Both the position numbers and the translations under genes were made by a program. The notes below the pieces were generated by a model, which did not search any database, was not told the DNA's origin, and saw nothing but the letters and a program-made list of their open reading frames with translations. From positions 1-64,000 of the forward strand of contig NZ_NESD01000003.1 of assembly GCF_003063545.1 (NCBI RefSeq): a stretch of DNA of 64,000 nucleotides. Direction: 5' to 3'. How positions within the stretch are numbered: position 1 is the first letter of the stretch; every line of letters starts with the position of its first letter. Source of the stretch: Limnohabitans sp. Jir61 (GTDB lineage: Bacteria > Pseudomonadota > Gammaproteobacteria > Burkholderiales > Burkholderiaceae_C). This document shows positions 38,360 through 45,796 of this stretch, piece by piece.

Positions 38360-39883
38360 ATGGGAATGCTTAAACACTATCTACTTTTTCTAGGTATGTA
38401 TGGCGTTGGAATTTCACTCCTGTTAGGAGGGATGGTTTCTCTACTGATTCCCATTCGATACGCTGGACTCATTCATACGCTTTCAAAGCCGCTGACTTAC
38501 GCTGCCTTCATTTTTACTGCGTCATGTTCTATTTTGTATTTGTTCTACCCGAACTTCATTGATCATCTAGAACCCACCATCACGCAAATCACTTTGATAT
38601 GGATGCAGGGTGGCGACTTGTATCCACCAATAGACGCCCCATCCAAGCACGGTCTTCTCTATGGCCCGGCGCTTTATTGGGTTCAATATCCATTTCTAGC
38701 AATTAGCAACGATCTCATCCTAAGCTCCAAATTACCTAGCGTGCTTGCTTTCAACGCGGCTTGCTGTCTACTTTTTTACAGTTATAAGAATGCACTATCT
38801 AGAGCGTATTTGCTTTTATTGCTCCCTTTTAACCTGATTCTTTTTTGGAATCGCGCGGAACCTTACTTCGTCTTACTGGTCGCGTTGGCTGTTTTTGTTA
38901 TTGAGCAACAACCCAAATCCCAAGCACTGTTGCTAGGTGTATTGGCAGGTCTTGCGAGCTCTTTTAAAGCTCATGGAATTTTGTACATCCTGCCCTTCTT
39001 AATTTTCTTTTGCAACTATTCTTTTCGTCACAGTGTCCAATTCGCTATCGCATTTAGCTTGATATGTCTAAGCTTTTTCTTAGATCGCCAAACATCACTG
39101 CTTCAATATTTTGAATATTTGAAATTGGCAACAATGCACGGCATTTCTTTTGCGTACTTCGAAAAGAATCTGTTTTTTCTTTTGCTGACATGGGTGCCCA
39201 TTGCACTAACGTTCAAATACACCACCACATCAAAGTTCGATGCATACAGATGGTTTGGCGTTGTTTTTATTGAGATCCTAGTTGTCATTGCTGGTTCAAA
39301 ACCTGGCGCAGGTGTTCACCATCTGATTCCTATTGTCGTTTTGAATTCGTTTCTATACGACATCCAATTACGACAAATTCATAGCACTGACGTTAAGTTT
39401 TCATCCATCAAAATCGGATTTGTAATTTTGGCTCTTTACGTACTTTCCTTTGTTTGGAAAAATATTTATGAGTCAGAAATCAAAAGTAATGCAGTGATTG
39501 AGTCTCAATTTCAAGCGAAGCAGGAAATTCAAATACTCAATGAGAAATTTCCAAACTTGTTGATGGGCGTCACAGACAAAGAAAATGACAACTACCGCCT
39601 GACATTTTTAAGGCCCTACTTGGTTAAGCCCACAGCTTCTCAATTTGAATTTGCTGGGTTCATGGATTTGAACTATTCAGGTGTTTCAGACAAACTATTT
39701 GCGACAGAACTCGAACACTGTAAGTACAAGTACATTGCTATGCCTAACAGTGGGGCACCATTTTCAATCGTGAACTTTTACACGGATCAGCCACTTTTTT
39801 CTGAAGTGACAAGAAATGCGTTTCATGATCACTACCGACCTCAATACATAGGCGCGTTCTTCTCCGTTTATGAATGTCGTTGA
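38360..39883 (+). CDS. Polytopic membrane protein, possibly GT-C-type glycosyltransferase
   Basis: A 507-residue membrane protein with about eleven hydrophobic segments in the first 390 residues and a soluble C-terminal part. No family was recognised with confidence. An extracytoplasmic loop after the second segment contains QGGDLYPPIDAPSKHGLLYGP, which resembles the first-loop pattern of GT-C glycosyltransferases (acidic D followed by a conserved loop). The gene is AT-rich compared with panD, uses different codons, and begins 22 bp after the panD terminator. This fits horizontal acquisition. A surface-glycan role is a guess. Confidence 0.6.
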   Translation: MGMLKHYLLFLGMYGVGISLLLGGMVSLLIPIRYAGLIHTLSKPLTYAAFIFTASCSILYLFYPNFIDHLEPTITQITLIWMQGGDLYPPIDAPSKHGLLYGPALYWVQYPFLAISNDLILSSKLPSVLAFNAACCLLFYSYKNALSRAYLLLLLPFNLILFWNRAEPYFVLLVALAVFVIEQQPKSQALLLGVLAGLASSFKAHGILYILPFLIFFCNYSFRHSVQFAIAFSLICLSFFLDRQTSLLQYFEYLKLATMHGISFAYFEKNLFFLLLTWVPIALTFKYTTTSKFDAYRWFGVVFIEILVVIAGSKPGAGVHHLIPIVVLNSFLYDIQLRQIHSTDVKFSSIKIGFVILALYVLSFVWKNIYESEIKSNAVIESQFQAKQEIQILNEKFPNLLMGVTDKENDNYRLTFLRPYLVKPTASQFEFAGFMDLNYSGVSDKLFATELEHCKYKYIAMPNSGAPFSIVNFYTDQPLFSEVTRNAFHDHYRPQYIGAFFSVYECR

Positions 39884-39946: not shown

Positions 39947-39970
39947 GTTCTAGAGCGTATTTGTTATTGA
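39947..39970 (+). promoter_or_regulatory. Palindrome/-10 promoter unit, copy 1
   Basis: GTTCTAGAGC (one mismatch to the palindrome GTTCTAGAAC), 8 nt (GTATTTGT), TATTGA. It lies 60 nt before the ATG of the first small membrane gene at 40031. Three further copies have the same spacing. Confidence 0.6.
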
Positions 39971-40030
39971 ATTTGTGTCTGGGTCAATCTAAGATTTTTG
40001 GTTGTTATTTGATCAACCATTCACACACAC

Positions 40031-40189
40031 ATGAGATTCGCAATCGTCACGTCTTCCATCTCCGCTCTGCTCATCACTGTCGTCAGCGCAATTTCAATCA
40101 CCGTTCTTTCTTGGTTGTATCCAGCAGTTCAGAACTACAACCCGGCCTCTGAGATGAGTACTGAAATTTCATGGGGCCAAGGTAGCTAA
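40031..40189 (+). CDS. Small membrane protein with EISWGQGS tail
   Basis: A 52-codon gene starting MRFAIVTSSISALLITVVS. One hydrophobic helix spans about residues 4-28, and the short polar tail ends STEISWGQGS. It lies 60 nt after promoter copy 1, and a second gene begins 3 bp after its stop. That neighbour has the same build and a related tail (EIKWGEGS), so the two look like paralogues. No family was recognised. Membrane anchored, tail probably outside. Confidence 0.6.
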   Translation: MRFAIVTSSISALLITVVSAISITVLSWLYPAVQNYNPASEMSTEISWGQGS

Positions 40190-40192
40190 GTT

Positions 40193-40375
40193 ATGAAGCT
40201 CAGTTTCATCATCGCGGTGCTTCTCTCAATTACGAGTATCAGCTCGGCAGCGATTCTTTTTTGGCACACCGCACCTCAATCATCTGCAAAAAAATTTGCG
40301 CCTCAATCTTCAATAGAAATCAAATGGGGCGAGGGTTCTGAAGCTGGCTCACCTGCTAGCACAACCCGCAATTAA
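40193..40375 (+). CDS. Small membrane protein with EIKWGEGS motif
   Basis: A 60-codon gene: MKLSFIIAVLLSITSISSA is a signal peptide or anchor, followed by LFWHTAPQSSAKKFAPQ and EIKWGEGSEAGSPASTTRN. It is 3 bp after the 52-codon gene and shares its helix-plus-EI-x-WG-x-GS layout. The region after it up to 40573 is AT-rich and holds nothing that I can identify. Confidence 0.6.
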   Translation: MKLSFIIAVLLSITSISSAAILFWHTAPQSSAKKFAPQSSIEIKWGEGSEAGSPASTTRN

Positions 40376-40573
40376 TCGATCGCTTAGGCTGTCAGTGGCT
40401 GTAGTTGTGCCTAATGCTTGTCAATGCCTTGCGCGTTCCAGCACGCACTAAAAATTGGCAGATCAAGAAAGTTATTTTTTCAACATAGTTGCACGTCCAT
40501 TTCTTTGTGCGTCAAAACACTTGACGTTATAAAAATCTTATCTGCAACACGTTTCTGTCTCTATACGAAATTG

Positions 40574-40597
40574 GCTCTAGAACCATCTTGCTATGGC
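40574..40597 (+). promoter_or_regulatory. Palindrome/-10 promoter unit, copy 2
   Basis: GCTCTAGAAC (one mismatch), 8 nt (CATCTTGC), TATGGC. It lies 32 nt before the ATG at 40630. It is the weakest of the four in the -10 position. Confidence 0.5.
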
Positions 40598-40629
40598 TTG
40601 CTGATTCCTTTTAAAAATAGCATTTACAC

Positions 40630-40974
40630 ATGTCTAAAACCTTCATATCTTCTCGGCTTTTTCTTATCACTTGCTTCGTTGCAAACATTGCTTCTTTTTC
40701 GGCTGTATTTGCAAGGGCTGACTTGTCAAAAACTACTCCCATTGCATTTGGGAACGATGAACAAGATTTTATTTTTACAGGGCTCTGTCCGAATGGCGAT
40801 GCTTATCGCATTCACGCATACCAAATGGATATTGACGGTTTAACGCAAGCGTTTTATGACTTTGATGGCCCAGCAGGTAAAGGCTCCGTCAAGACCAATG
40901 CGGCTCCTAAAAAAATGGTTGTGCGCGTTTGCCATGAATTGGCTGATATCGCAAATGGTTCAAAGTTTGATTGA
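40630..40974 (+). CDS. Small secreted protein with two cysteines
   Basis: A 114-residue exported protein. A signal peptide covers about residues 1-30 (ending VFARA). The mature chain of about 84 residues has two Cys (GLCPNGD and VRVCHELAD) that could form a disulfide, and acidic/aromatic stretches (AYQMDIDGLTQAFYDFDGP). No family was recognised. It has its own copy of the shared promoter and ends two bases before the next one. Confidence 0.6.
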   Translation: MSKTFISSRLFLITCFVANIASFSAVFARADLSKTTPIAFGNDEQDFIFTGLCPNGDAYRIHAYQMDIDGLTQAFYDFDGPAGKGSVKTNAAPKKMVVRVCHELADIANGSKFD

Positions 40975-40976
40975 AT

Positions 40977-41000
40977 GTTCTAGAACCTATTTGCTATTGA
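40977..41000 (+). promoter_or_regulatory. Palindrome/-10 promoter unit, copy 3
   Basis: A perfect GTTCTAGAAC, 8 nt (CTATTTGC), TATTGA. It lies 55 nt before the ATG at 41056. It begins 3 bp after the stop codon of the preceding small gene. Confidence 0.65.
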
Positions 41001-41055
41001 GATCGTTATGCGTCGCCTCTCTAATGACCTTACTCATTTTTCTTGAAGAGGTCAT

Positions 41056-41286
41056 ATGCAATTCAACTTCAAAAAGCCTATCTCTGGTCTCATAGTCTTG
41101 GCAGCGCTTAGTTGTGCGATGTCTGTCTATTCTGAAAATCACAATGTGGCGCCACGCACTTTTGCGAGCAATCAATTCTCTGAATTACCAAATTCACTTA
41201 AAGTTGAAAATATTTCTCGTGACTACTCCAACGCCCACATTGAATTGATGAAGAAACCTGATGAAGTGACCATTAGCGCTTTTTGA
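41056..41286 (+). CDS. Small secreted protein
   Basis: A 76-residue exported protein. The start MQFNFKKPISGLIVLAALS and the following CAMSVYSE give a signal peptide cut near residue 26. The mature part (about 50 residues) is polar with no Cys after the signal. GAGGTCAT-type purines precede the ATG. No family was recognised. Own promoter (copy 3). Confidence 0.55.
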   Translation: MQFNFKKPISGLIVLAALSCAMSVYSENHNVAPRTFASNQFSELPNSLKVENISRDYSNAHIELMKKPDEVTISAF

Positions 41287-41320
41287 ATCCACCTTATTAA
41301 CTCAAGCGCCTAGCCCATTG

Positions 41321-41344
41321 GTTCTAGAACTGATTGCATATTGA
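41321..41344 (+). promoter_or_regulatory. Palindrome/-10 promoter unit, copy 4
   Basis: A perfect GTTCTAGAAC, 8 nt (TGATTGCA), TATTGA. It lies 81 nt before the regulator gene at 41426, so the regulator belongs to the same set and may control itself. Confidence 0.65.
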
Positions 41345-41425
41345 ATGAACAGCTTCGTCTGCCTAGCATGATCTGGTGAACAAGCTCTTTACGTATCGCC
41401 AAACTCAGTCTGACTGAATAACCAA

Positions 41426-41800
41426 ATGCTTCATTTGTCCATTGAGTACAAATTCTCGAACAAACCTACAAGCAACAGGTTGGAACACCCACTTCTAGTT
41501 TTGCTTGAAAGTGTCAACGAAACTGGATCTATCAACAAGGCCGCCAAGCACCTGGGGCTGTCATACCGCTATGTTTGGGGCGAGTTAAAACGTTGGGAAT
41601 CCGAGCTGAACACTAACCTCATCGTTTGGGGCAGAACAAGCAAAGGCGCAGCCTTGACACCAGAAGCGATGCAATTTCTCGAGGAAGTATCTAAAACAGA
41701 GATTGACCTAGCGCTTCAAATCGCTCATATTAAAAATCGGGTCGAAAAGTGCGTTTCTGTTTTAAAAAACTCCCGCACTATGCATCTGGCAACGCACTAG
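41426..41800 (+). CDS. ModE/LysR-like winged-helix regulator, DNA-binding domain only
   Basis: A 124-residue protein consisting of one winged helix. HPLLVLLESVNETGSINKAA and HLGLSYRYVWGELKRWE match the N-terminal domain of ModE and LysR-like ModE regulators, with TPEAMQFLEEVSK as the end of the wing/dimer helix. The molybdate-binding or periplasmic-binding-like C-terminal domain is absent. The frame is closed by a normal stop, and the last 20 residues are unlike the family. It lies between the small secreted genes and a two-component system and is preceded by promoter copy 4. Confidence 0.75.
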   Translation: MLHLSIEYKFSNKPTSNRLEHPLLVLLESVNETGSINKAAKHLGLSYRYVWGELKRWESELNTNLIVWGRTSKGAALTPEAMQFLEEVSKTEIDLALQIAHIKNRVEKCVSVLKNSRTMHLATH

Positions 41801-41866
41801 CAATTATTTGTAATTACTTACACCTAATAAGCTCTCGGTTAAAACCCATATACAACCAAAATTCAG

Positions 41867-41895
41867 TTGATCTACACAAGGCTACTGGCTAGTAT
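41867..41895 (+). promoter_or_regulatory. Sigma-70-type promoter of the response-regulator gene
   Basis: TTGATC, 17 nt, TAGTAT. The predicted start is about 41902, only three or so bases before the ATG at 41905, and no Shine-Dalgarno sequence is present. The mRNA may be leaderless. Confidence 0.45.
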
Positions 41896-41904
41896 TACTT
41901 TCTC

Positions 41905-42546
41905 ATGGATGCAATTTACAAAAAATCTCTTTTAATCATTGATGACCATCCGGTGTATCGCGATGCACTGCGAGAAAAATTAAGCCATGTCTTTTCTGGT
42001 GATGGAATTGAAGTTGCGGTTGCGAGCAACGCTAATGATGGCTTATCGCTTTTAGAGCAATCTAATCATCAGTGGATCGTTTTGCTTGATGTGCAGATGC
42101 CCGGGCTCAGTGGACTTGCAGGCATCAAAGTTTTCAAAAAAATTCCAAATGTCGAACATGTTGTCTCCATTTCTGGGCTGGATGTGAACTCTTGGGAACC
42201 TAAAACCGCATCGGCTGGTGCGTCGCTATTTCTCTCAAAAGACAGCACGGCTGATTTCATTATTCTGAAACTCAAGCCCTTGTTCGCCATTGATCCGGAC
42301 TATGTTGCCACTGACGTCAATCTTGAACCCAAAGAATTTCGACTCACCCAAAGACAGCTTGAAGTTCTTGACTTGATTGCTCAAGGCCATCCAAATAAAG
42401 TCATCGCAGATTACCTTGATATCAGTGAACAAACTGTCAAGATTCACATCAATCAGATCTTTAAAGAACTGCGTGTTTTCAACAGAACGCAGGCAATGAT
42501 CAAAGCACAAAAACATCACTTGCTTCTTGAAACAAGGTCAAAGTGA
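41905..42546 (+). CDS. NarL/LuxR-family response regulator
   Basis: A 213-residue response regulator. The receiver domain has the acidic pair in IIDDHP near residue 12 and the phosphorylation site Asp62 in LLDVQMPGLSG. The C-terminal LuxR-type HTH includes LTQRQLEVLDLIAQGHPNK and ISEQTVKIHINQIF. It lies 15 bp before the hybrid kinase gene, its likely partner. It could be the activator that reads the GTTCTAGAAC palindromes, but this is untested. Confidence 0.92.
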   Translation: MDAIYKKSLLIIDDHPVYRDALREKLSHVFSGDGIEVAVASNANDGLSLLEQSNHQWIVLLDVQMPGLSGLAGIKVFKKIPNVEHVVSISGLDVNSWEPKTASAGASLFLSKDSTADFIILKLKPLFAIDPDYVATDVNLEPKEFRLTQRQLEVLDLIAQGHPNKVIADYLDISEQTVKIHINQIFKELRVFNRTQAMIKAQKHHLLLETRSK

Positions 42547-42561
42547 TTTTCTAAAACGCTT

Positions 42562-44367
42562 ATGCCTAGCAACACAGCACGACTCAAACCCGCAACGATC
42601 AAGGCTAATAATGCGCGTCTTGCTGAAGATGAAGCAAGTCAGTTGTATCTATTGCGTGAAAAAGCCGTACACATCATCAAGGCCGCTAGATCAGCCACGC
42701 CTGCGAACATATTAGCCCCCCTACTTTGTATCCCTGCATTTAGTGGTGAAGTCAATCCAAAGTATTTGGGTATTTGGCTGACTTACATGTTCGTCGTTGT
42801 CGTGATCCGAACATGGATATTTTTTAAGCTTAAAGACAAAGTAGAAGACATTAGCAATCCGCAGCGTGATTTGAAAATGGCCTCATTAGCTGTCGGCATC
42901 GTGGGCTTAGGGTGGGGTTTAGGCTGGGTATTGATGGCGCCTGATTTGCAGATGGTCAATCGCATCATTTATGTTTACATGATCACAGCTGCAATGATTT
43001 CAAGTATGTTTGCTTATAGCGTGCACAAGCCTACTTTTTATTCATTCACACTGCCCATCATCATCCCATCGCTCAGCACAGCGATATGGTCAATAGATAT
43101 TTTGCCCTGGACTTTTTCAGTTGGTCTGGCCACTTTATATCTTGTTGTTCTCGGCATTTCTAAGAATTTTTCTAGAACATTTGAAGATTCACTTCGCCTT
43201 AGATTTAGGAATGAACACCTCTACAAAGAACTAGCCAACGAACGAGATCAATCGATTGCTGCGAATGTTGCGAAATCTAAATTTATTGCAGTGGCTAGTC
43301 ACGACTTGCGTCAACCAATGCACGCGGTGAACGTCTATCTAGACATCTTTGATGCAGACAAATTTCCTGAGCAAGACAAACTGTTGCTGAGCAAAATCAA
43401 AAGTAGCATCACTTCGCTTAACTCAATGTTTGATTCGTTGCTCAACATTAGCAAGTTAGATGCCCTTGTCACACCCGTTAACAATCGTATTTTCAGTTTG
43501 CAAGAACTAGCCAATACGCTTCGCGACTTGAATGCCACACGCGCAGCTGCGAAAGGATTGACATTCAAAATTTCAAATCCGAATTTAAATGTTTGCGGTG
43601 ATAAATTGCTTTTGCAACAAATCATTAGCAATCTCATCTCAAATGCGATTCAATACACCGAGACTGGCAGCGTAGATGTGAATCTCACTGAACAGATTGG
43701 CTGTTTGGTCGTTGAAGTGATTGACACCGGATGCGGGGTAGAGGAATCAGAACAGTTACACATCTTCGGTGAGTTTTATCGCGCAGATCGAACTCGCTCA
43801 TTGCATGATGGGCTTGGACTGGGACTGTCCATCGTACAGCGCTTGTCCGACCTCATTGGCGCTACCGTGCATCTCAGTTCTCAACCCGACATGGGCTCTA
43901 AATTTGTGATCACAACACCTTACGTGACATCCACAAGTCATGAAGCCCTAGAGCTAGCAACAACACAAACTAAATCCCTCAAAAAACACCGGATTTTGCA
44001 AGGCAAATACATTGCAGTGATTGAAGACAATCCTGTCATTGTGGATGCCTACAAGCAAACCTTAGCGAACGAAGGGGCCTACGTTCACGTTTTGTCCGAA
44101 TCTGAGACAGCACTAGACGAACAACTTGAAAATATTGACTCCATTGACTGCATCCTCAGCGACTACAGATTAAGTCGCACCACAGGAGATGTGTTGATTC
44201 AAAAAATTCGGGAAAACTACAACGAGGAAATTCCCGCCATCATCGTGACGGCCGATACATCACCCTCGCATATCAATTTATTTGCCAGCTTAAACGTACA
44301 AGTCATGCACAAGCCTATTAGCTTTCAAGCTGTCGTCCATGCCATTAAAGACCTCGTTGAATCCTAA
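42562..44367 (+). CDS. Hybrid sensor histidine kinase with seven-helix-type membrane sensor
   Basis: A 601-residue kinase. About six hydrophobic segments (residues 50-205) form the sensor, with no periplasmic domain. HisKA has His247 in ASHDLRQPMHAVNVYLD; the ATPase domain has NLISNAIQYTETG, DTGCGVEE and GLGLGLSIVQRL. A C-terminal receiver carries Asp534 in CILSDYRL. The sensor layout suggests a ligand in the membrane or a signal from membrane peptides, such as the small proteins encoded upstream, but this is only a guess. Paired with the preceding response regulator. Confidence 0.92.
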   Translation: MPSNTARLKPATIKANNARLAEDEASQLYLLREKAVHIIKAARSATPANILAPLLCIPAFSGEVNPKYLGIWLTYMFVVVVIRTWIFFKLKDKVEDISNPQRDLKMASLAVGIVGLGWGLGWVLMAPDLQMVNRIIYVYMITAAMISSMFAYSVHKPTFYSFTLPIIIPSLSTAIWSIDILPWTFSVGLATLYLVVLGISKNFSRTFEDSLRLRFRNEHLYKELANERDQSIAANVAKSKFIAVASHDLRQPMHAVNVYLDIFDADKFPEQDKLLLSKIKSSITSLNSMFDSLLNISKLDALVTPVNNRIFSLQELANTLRDLNATRAAAKGLTFKISNPNLNVCGDKLLLQQIISNLISNAIQYTETGSVDVNLTEQIGCLVVEVIDTGCGVEESEQLHIFGEFYRADRTRSLHDGLGLGLSIVQRLSDLIGATVHLSSQPDMGSKFVITTPYVTSTSHEALELATTQTKSLKKHRILQGKYIAVIEDNPVIVDAYKQTLANEGAYVHVLSESETALDEQLENIDSIDCILSDYRLSRTTGDVLIQKIRENYNEEIPAIIVTADTSPSHINLFASLNVQVMHKPISFQAVVHAIKDLVES

Positions 44368-44869: not shown

Positions 44870-45796
44870 TTAAAACACCACGATCACATCTTCGCTGACG
44901 TATCGGTAAATGAAGTCTGGGCCGTTGTAACCCAGCGATCTAAAGTAGCCCGCCTTGGCCTTGATGTAAATACGGTTCGCAATGGGCTTGGTCGCCGAAA
45001 ATTCAAATGCTTTTGCAAGTGTTTTGGCGTCATCCCCTCCTGCTTGACGACCATAACCCACGTTCGCACTGAGATTCCAGCTCGATACCGCGCGATTGAA
45101 CTCTATCGCTGCGATATTTTCGACGAAACGGTATGGGTTGAAATAACCACTGGTAACACCGGTATCTGTATTTTTGAAATATCGACTGCGTAATTGCAAA
45201 TTAACACCTTGCTCTGGCAAGACGTCGTATGTCATTTTTATTTTTGCTAGCGGCCTGTGATTACCGTCTGTATACCTTGTTTCGCCGAGTGTGAACTGCA
45301 TCTTCATCGCAGCGAGGATCGCCTGTTCGACACTCACGTTGTAGTTATTCGCCACAACCCTTGTCATGAGTGACTGCTGAACTTCTACGCGATCTCGGTT
45401 ATAGGTAATTTCTGCAGTCGTTTTTTCATGCAATCGCTTTGAATAGCTGGCATCTGCAGTCCACAGTGCATTGACGGTTTCGAGTGTGTTGTATCCGACT
45501 GTTAGATTTTTAGTCGTCCCTGACTGATCCGTATTTTTCGAGACAACAGAAACTTGATTGCCCTTGCTATACCAATCGCCCATTTGGAAGTGATTGCGAC
45601 TGTATTCCACACCAACTAAGTTGTCGGCATCTTGATAGCGATCGTAATAACCTGTTTTGTATTTATCCGTTTTGAATCCATCGCCAAAGCTAGCCTTATA
45701 GACGCTGGGCAGGTACAAGGCCTGCGCAATCACATGCCCAGTGCTCGCACATCCAATCAATAAAAGGAAAAATACTCTAGTAACTGCAATGCTCAT
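44870..45796 (-). CDS. Outer-membrane beta-barrel protein, unknown
   Basis: A 308-residue exported protein. Signal peptide MSIAVTRVFFLLLIGCAST through about residue 24. The rest shows repeated amphipathic strands (VGVEYSRNHFQMGDWY, TAEITYNRDRVEVQQS, NLQLRSRYFK) and ends in Phe (VIVVF), as expected for an outer-membrane barrel. No family was recognised. It begins 5 bp after the membrane protein gene at 45802, in an apparent three-gene unit with MipA. Confidence 0.65.
   Translation of the reverse strand: MSIAVTRVFFLLLIGCASTGHVIAQALYLPSVYKASFGDGFKTDKYKTGYYDRYQDADNLVGVEYSRNHFQMGDWYSKGNQVSVVSKNTDQSGTTKNLTVGYNTLETVNALWTADASYSKRLHEKTTAEITYNRDRVEVQQSLMTRVVANNYNVSVEQAILAAMKMQFTLGETRYTDGNHRPLAKIKMTYDVLPEQGVNLQLRSRYFKNTDTGVTSGYFNPYRFVENIAAIEFNRAVSSWNLSANVGYGRQAGGDDAKTLAKAFEFSATKPIANRIYIKAKAGYFRSLGYNGPDFIYRYVSEDVIVVF

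Follow-up and report, generated by a model that had tools for sequence, protein, structure and literature searches.

A conserved promoter box overlapping a predicted -35 element defines a putative local two-component regulon of small exported proteins in Limnohabitans

A block of small genes in the 64,000-nt window from Limnohabitans sp. Jir61 (the whole stretch of DNA that was analyzed) carries four copies of a 24-nt box at predicted sigma-70 promoters (Table 1). The box, the spacing of its -35 and -10 elements, their conservation across related genomes, and the co-occurrence of the box with a NarL/LuxR-type response regulator (RR) are directly visible in the genomes compared. The reading that we consider probable is that of a local two-component regulon, in which the NarL-type RR would activate the target units and its own gene via such boxes. 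Specifically, we infer that a membrane-anchored hybrid kinase senses a signal and controls phosphorylation of the RR, which would then bind the ~24-bp box TCTAGARC-N6-GyTATTGA, probably as a dimer, and recruit RNA polymerase from a class II position at a sigma-70 promoter of the form TTGAnn-N17-TAnnAT. By this mechanism, the RR would switch on a 52/60-aa membrane pair, 114-aa and 76-aa exported proteins, and a ModE-like regulator, and would also activate its own gene via a weaker box of like layout. If so, a freshwater genus gains a defined putative RR box, a testable regulon, and small exported families that are unnamed by Pfam and NCBIfam; as the targets are so few, both the signal and the role of the exported proteins should be directly approachable.

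Table 1. Coordinates of the boxes, predicted promoter elements, and genes discussed in the text
Feature	Sequence	Position	Strand	Remarks
Box 1	GTTCTAGAGCgtatttgtTATTGA	39947..39970	+	Upstream of the 52/60-aa pair; overlaps -35 TTGAAT (39967-39972)
Predicted -10	TAAGAT	39990..39995	+	52/60-aa pair; spacer 17
52-aa protein		40031..40189	+	One hydrophobic segment; ends EISWGQGS
60-aa protein		40193..40375	+	One hydrophobic segment; carries EIKWGEGSEAG
Box 2	GCTCTAGAACcatcttgcTATGGC	40574..40597	+	Most degenerate of the four on the + strand
Predicted -10	TAGCAT	40618..40623	+	114-aa gene; register off by one base
114-aa protein		40630..40974	+	Signal-like hydrophobic segment at the N terminus; member of a family with CPNG...RVC
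Box 3	GTTCTAGAACctatttgcTATTGA	40977..41000	+	-35 TTGAGA 40997-41002
Predicted -10	TCTAAT	41020..41025	+	76-aa gene; TCTAAT also in the G105 orthologue
76-aa protein		41056..41286	+	Signal-like N terminus; ends KKPDEVTISAF
Box 4	GTTCTAGAACtgattgcaTATTGA	41321..41344	+	-35 TTGAAT 41341-41346
Predicted -10	TAGCAT	41364..41369	+	ModE-like gene
ModE-like protein		41426..41800	+	124 aa; stand-alone ModE/LysR-type winged helix
Type 2 box	CATATACAACcaaaattcAGTTGA	41847..41870	+	Before the RR gene; -35 TTGATC 41867-41872
Predicted -10	TAGTAT	41890..41895	+	RR gene; start codon begins 10 nt after the last base
NarL/LuxR-type RR		41905..42546	+	213 aa; proposed reader of the boxes
Hybrid histidine kinase		42562..44367	+	601 aa; N-terminal membrane domain, HisKA, HATPase, receiver
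60-aa/114-aa fusion		L174:5067-5489	-	One of two genomes with the fusion
60-aa/114-aa fusion		L182:5279-5704	+	The other genome with the fusion
NLFNM...MRNPRIHEL-type small protein		L238:1237-1440; L239; L189:1386-1147		Each behind a diverged box

Copies of the box in the window and the genome

The original prediction described four units, each consisting of the palindrome GTTCTAGAAC followed 8 nt later by TATTGA or a variant of it, and a pattern scan of the window recovered all four where they had been placed. All lie on the plus strand, those at 39947 and 40574 with one mismatch each in the palindrome and those at 40977 and 41321 perfect; the hexamer is TATTGA in each except the 40574 unit, where it is TATGGC. 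At up to one mismatch, the palindrome alone has seven matches in the window against 0.91 expected, and the three outside the units (1580, 43169, and 54493) are absent from the matches to the full unit. When the proposed search for GTTCTAGAAC-N8-TATTGA was run over the entire genome (2,626,790 bases), near-perfect copies turned out to be confined to this block, the only matches at up to one mismatch being those at 39947, 40977, and 41321. The 40574 copy of the full unit deviates at three positions. With three mismatches allowed, the genome yields 16 matches to the pattern versus 19 to a reversed-pattern control, and this box is backed by its position and by an orthologous box in G094 (L166:4824), not by its score. 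Extending the pattern with the -10 block retrieved three copies genome-wide at zero or one mismatch, with no matches to the control; the further matches were the 40574 copy read on the minus strand (two mismatches) and one chance site (three mismatches). Alignment of 26 box copies, 4 from the window and 22 from loci of related genomes, revealed a conserved unit longer than that first noted, namely, GTTCTAGARC-nn-ATTTGy-TATTGA-N19-TAnnAT. The 24-mer of box 1 is identical in five genomes of the same genus (G063, G077, G092, G101, and G103) and in G193 from another genus.

Promoter layout

Counting from the first base of the palindrome, TAnnnT occurs at position 44 in 22 of the 26 copies, compared with a maximum of 6 at any position in 2000 shuffles. 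Of the remaining four, the 76-aa gene of the window and its G105 orthologue have TCTAAT at position 44, and the 114-aa gene of the window and the G294 copy have TAnnnT one base off. The retention of TAnnnT at this position indicates that the TTGA of TATTGA (positions 21-24) is the -35 element, with the conserved -10 block TAnnAT (positions 44-49) lying 17 nt beyond. The -35/-10 pairs in the window, in order, are TTGAAT-N17-TAAGAT, (TGGCTT)-N18-TAGCAT, TTGAGA-N17-TCTAAT, and TTGAAT-N17-TAGCAT. The initial placement of the palindrome between the -35 and -10 elements, with TATTGA as the -10, finds no support in this conservation, and what stands of the initial proposal is one shared site marking a local regulon of small exported and membrane proteins. 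The case exemplifies how a palindrome judged by eye was assigned to the wrong part of the promoter, an error that came to light once related genomes were compared.

Assuming a transcription start ~7 nt past the -10 element (position ~56), the conserved block spans about -55 to -32. In the terms used for class I and class II activators, a site that abuts or overlaps the -35 element, with the -10 at 16 to 18 nt, belongs to the latter class, and this is the arrangement found in the sequences of the 26 copies: the 24-nt box abuts and overlaps the predicted -35 in what is class II activator geometry. At the 114-aa gene, the start codon (40630) falls at about +1, and its message may be leaderless.

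Poor -10 and -35 elements are typical of activator-dependent promoters. Here, the -10 elements are poor (e.g., TACGAT and TAGCAT), the -35 elements keep little beyond TTGA, and the distance from the box to the -10 is constant, all of which argue against the main rival explanation, to which we assign a small but appreciable likelihood, that the RR binds the boxes as a repressor or dual regulator and that the kinase relieves repression. In its favor, the box overlaps the -35, so a bound protein could also block the polymerase, and NarL both activates and represses, frdA being a repressed target (PMC4549865).

Phyletic distribution of the box and its candidate readers

Our survey covered 84 genomes from the genus, many being incomplete, with L047 and G101, which are one genome, counted once. 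The box is present at up to one mismatch in 11 of these, 10 of which carry an intact orthologue of the RR (65-100% identity). The G104 orthologue is among the intact ones, its TAG being the natural end; that of G077 (L179) is split over two frames by a frameshift. A stand-alone ModE-like protein (at least 53% identity) occurs in 6 of the 11 and is missing from the other 5, including G063 and G075, for which the listed completeness is 100%. Fisher's exact test gave 7e-10 for box versus RR (3e-8 if G077 is counted as lacking the RR), 7.5e-6 for box versus ModE-like protein, and 1.2e-6 for box versus the 114-aa family, for sets drawn by hand (RR at 59% and ModE-like at 53% identity); all of these values are inflated, as related genomes and orthologous promoters are not independent. 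The suggested comparison of the block in related genomes, once run, showed that the box goes with the RR orthologue.

The block around the box is itself variable: tblastn searches of 43 loci and the window showed that the 52/60-aa pair and the 114-aa, 76-aa, and ModE-like genes come and go. The RR and kinase are its more constant part, and they are located elsewhere in the genome for G075, G085, and one G092 box. Family-wide, the box at up to two mismatches is found in 6 of 399 genomes, with 0 for the control. Two of the six, G193 and G294, are from another genus, and in both the RR (63-64% identity) and kinase adjoin the box; G193 has a perfect 24-mer before a relative of the 114-aa protein, and no small target gene was recognized at the G294 box. 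Counting against the RR as reader, G068, G085, G086, and G096 have an RR of 59-68% identity but no box at up to three mismatches. Degenerate boxes precede the 114-aa gene in G085 and G096; in G068 and G086, no box was found before that gene, and the only candidates are weak boxes at the RR promoter.

The original prediction offered either the ModE-like protein or the LuxR-type RR as the regulator, and the distribution favors the RR and counts against the ModE-like protein. It is unlikely, in our estimation, that the latter reads the palindrome as an autoregulated local regulator. Its gene does lie inside the block, with its own box both here and in G083, and it co-occurs with the box as noted above. 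Its absence from 5 of the 11 box-bearing genomes argues the opposite, as does G193, where the sole match near the perfect box is 30% identical and 4.8 kb off. In L048 and L049, the protein lies beside an RR of 39% identity and there are only weak candidate boxes (scores of 7.3 and 10.8, against a 99% null point of 11.7). Having its own box, and being missing from those 5 genomes, the ModE-like protein probably looks like a target rather than a reader. It corresponds to the winged-helix part of ModE only, scoring 42.5 bits against TIGR00637 (cut-off, 98.5) and 19.3 against the full-length ModE model (cut-off, 369).

Alternative readings of the palindrome

A moderately conserved CATTG precedes the palindrome (16-20 of 26 copies per column) and could be read as a -35 element with a 15-nt spacer to TATTGA. 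Sigma-70 promoters have preferences in spacer length, and MerR-type activators act on the spacer. One may conceive of TATTGA as the -10 element, with the palindrome in the spacer as the site of a repressor or a MerR-like activator; TATTGA is fairly -10-like, the preceding TTTG would suit an extended -10, and the TTG of CATTG would supply the -35. We judge this quite unlikely: a better -10, TAnnAT, occurs 17 nt past TTGA in 22 of the 26 copies, with near-misses in the other four, TATTGA is without the final T of a -10, and a 15-nt spacer is short. The presence of four copies inside 1.4 kb might also suggest a mobile element, or a repeat that spreads without any regulatory role. This is scarcely credible: the four copies have different flanking sequences and all lie upstream of genes in the sense orientation, no near-perfect copy was found outside the block at the stringency used, and the register to the -10 is constant over different genes and two genera.

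Diverged boxes and dyad symmetry

Returning to the box as an RR site, we trained a matrix on 21 boxes, with 24 columns for the box and 6 for the -10, and scanned the window together with 43 loci (457,154 bases in all); shuffled sequence scored 13.4 at best. Untrained sites scoring 14-31 precede the 114-aa gene in G085, G098, G088, and G096, a 51% identical RR paralogue in G075 (GTCGTACAAC, in which the core CTAG is changed to GTAC), and a 68-79-aa protein of the NLFNM...MRNPRIHEL type in G076, G089, and G019. This last protein is found in 3 of the 84 genomes, and all three have the diverged box together with an RR of 46-48% identity. The G093 site and its duplicate in G079 score 13.4, the same as the best shuffle, yet lie directly before the 114-aa gene. 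The RRs of G093 and G088, both of which have a diverged box before the 114-aa gene, are 57% and 49% identical, respectively, and none was found for G079 in the search of the genus genomes. Two sites before the 76-aa gene, scoring 8.4 and 8.7, are inside the shuffled range and count by position alone. In eight diverged boxes, positions 5, 6, 10, 13, 14, 18, 20, 21, and 23 are kept in all eight, and G1 (3/8), T12 (2), T16 (0), G17 (2), and A24 (3) are eroded. These patterns suggest that diverged RRs accompany diverged boxes, G096, with a poor box and a close RR, being an exception.

For the dyad scan, we used a 32-site set from which two sites were excluded: L188:1895 of G089, which is followed by no gene, and that of G079, a duplicate of G093. 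The first-noted palindrome, with its center at 5.5, scored 0.521 over 16 pairs, and a second dyad centered at 13.5 (TCTAGARC-N6-GyTATTGA) scored 0.443; with the outer pairs alone, the center at 13.5 was best (0.452 versus 0.423; median, 0.256). Within-site pairing equals the expectation from independent columns, and pair 2/9 is below it (4/32 versus 10.8), so the symmetry is one of the consensus, without covariation. We favor the center at 13.5, which is at -42.5 from the predicted start, though both centers fit, which makes the half-sites ambiguous.

Two further sites came up in these scans. An untrained G089 site (L188:1895-1846, minus strand) scores 35.8 with a -10 of TAAGAT; no ORF of at least 35 aa starts behind it, and inspection by eye places it just behind a tRNA-like 3' end and beside a selB-like gene. 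When read on the minus strand (window 40583-40535, GTTCTAGAGCcaatttcgTATAGA-N19-TAAGAT), the 40574 box scores 34.2, versus 13.0 on the plus strand, and no minus-strand ORF of at least 50 aa is listed from it towards the 60-aa gene. This reading could represent a promoter for a small RNA or an antisense transcript, or it could simply follow from the palindrome.

The response regulator, its promoter, and the kinase

The RR combines a receiver domain (PF00072, 53.9 bits; cut-off, 30.2) with a GerE domain (PF00196, 63.6 bits; cut-off, 23.5), the architecture of the NarL/FixJ family. Among the best 25 of 80 matches, none of the named NCBIfam subfamilies (NarL, MctR, NarP, ErdR, and others) is above its cut-off, the best model being NarL at 84.9 bits against a cut-off of 250; NarL is also the closest response regulator in the PDB. 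The box before the RR gene is of a second type, with the consensus CATCTACAACcaaAGTTTaRTTGA. Together with a -10, it was found by script in 15 of 17 loci encoding an RR at least 63% identical (the misses are G105 and G096), these 17 promoters being orthologous and not independent. The -10 is TAGCAT in 11 of the 15, its register is the same (9) or one base closer (6), and the unit lies 55-77 nt before the start codon. In the controls, 0.7% of shuffled upstream stretches attain the type 2 score (never more than 2 of 17 over 300 rounds), as do 1.35% of stretches taken at random from real sequence. On the target-box matrix, the type 2 boxes fall mostly within the null (95% point, 0.1; 99% point, 11.7). 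The RR message is probably leaderless because the start codon lies so near the -10.

The membrane domain of the kinase has six helices in the structure model, and hydropathy alone marks about five segments. The model resembles the six-helix membrane anchors of adenylyl cyclases, and those anchors have been argued to serve as receptors. CqsS-type hybrid kinases comprise a six-helix membrane domain, HisKA, HATPase, and receiver in that order, and they share with this kinase the order of the last three. The kinase alignment (A3) holds 24 of 26 rows plus the window, without L047, which duplicates L172, and L048, which contained a stop.

Relationship to known regulatory systems

A class II box read by a NarL-type RR would be a system of a known kind, its geometry having precedents in ComA, NarL, and the lux box. 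Like E. coli NarL acting at napF and yeaR, the RR is a REC-GerE protein, and it is nearest to NarL itself; in both systems the site lies just upstream of and overlaps the -35. The activating 7-2-7 sites of NarL at napF and yeaR occupy -40 to -49 and -38 to -47 (PMC4549865). The likeness to these sites is one of placement, the box having been examined by a general dyad scan. Unlike in the E. coli NarL system, the kinase here is a hybrid with a multihelix membrane domain and the proposed targets are small exported proteins. The lux box bound by LuxR, a 20-nt imperfect dyad at -42.5 (PMC7585371), is similar in size, in its imperfect symmetry, and, if the center at 13.5 is taken, in the distance of its center from the predicted start. 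The lux box, however, has an acyl-homoserine-lactone-binding LuxR as its reader, and the proposed reader has a receiver instead of that domain. In Bacillus subtilis, the LuxR-type regulator ComA acts in both class I and class II modes, and its promoters carry an inverted repeat with a second, more degenerate element after it near the -35 (PMC4797271). The present box has a similar succession of elements under a LuxR-type regulator; it differs in that the ComA hexamers (TTGCGG) form two separate pairs, whereas the candidate dyads of the present box, also two, overlap each other inside its 24 bp. Among the matches listed, we found no published description, by title, of a TTCTAGAA box at response-regulator promoters and no paper, by title, on Limnohabitans small secreted proteins with this kinase system, and a search on strain MORI2 gave none; within that scope, and in Pfam and NCBIfam, the box appears to be unnamed, as do the regulon and the families of small proteins.

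The proposed target proteins

The 52-aa protein matches no Pfam or NCBIfam family above the cut-off, and the 60-aa protein has a 46% identical relative, LMORI2_00820, in Limnohabitans sp. MORI2. In G063 and G103, relatives of the 60-aa protein form in-frame fusions with the 114-aa family; in alignment A1, the L174 and L182 rows begin at an internal Met of the fusion, and P0007 and P0014 (short) and L177 (the same protein as L178) were left out. The structure model of the 114-aa protein has four strands and one helix, with no sequence match in the PDB and no significant Foldseek match. The 52/60-aa proteins have a conserved WGxxS in their tails, and the C-terminal end of the 76-aa protein is likewise conserved. 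These proteins are candidates in a self-sensing circuit, a speculative and rather unlikely scenario in which the tiny exported proteins induced by the RR would make or carry a signal that the CqsS-like kinase perceives. If true, this Gram-negative bacterium would have a quorum-like switch with positive feedback that works through a new kind of protein or peptide signal.

The genes flanking the block are outside the regulon; they show a weak mannosyltransferase-like match (38360-39883) and a weak match to a PgaA barrel (44870-45796), both below the cut-off.
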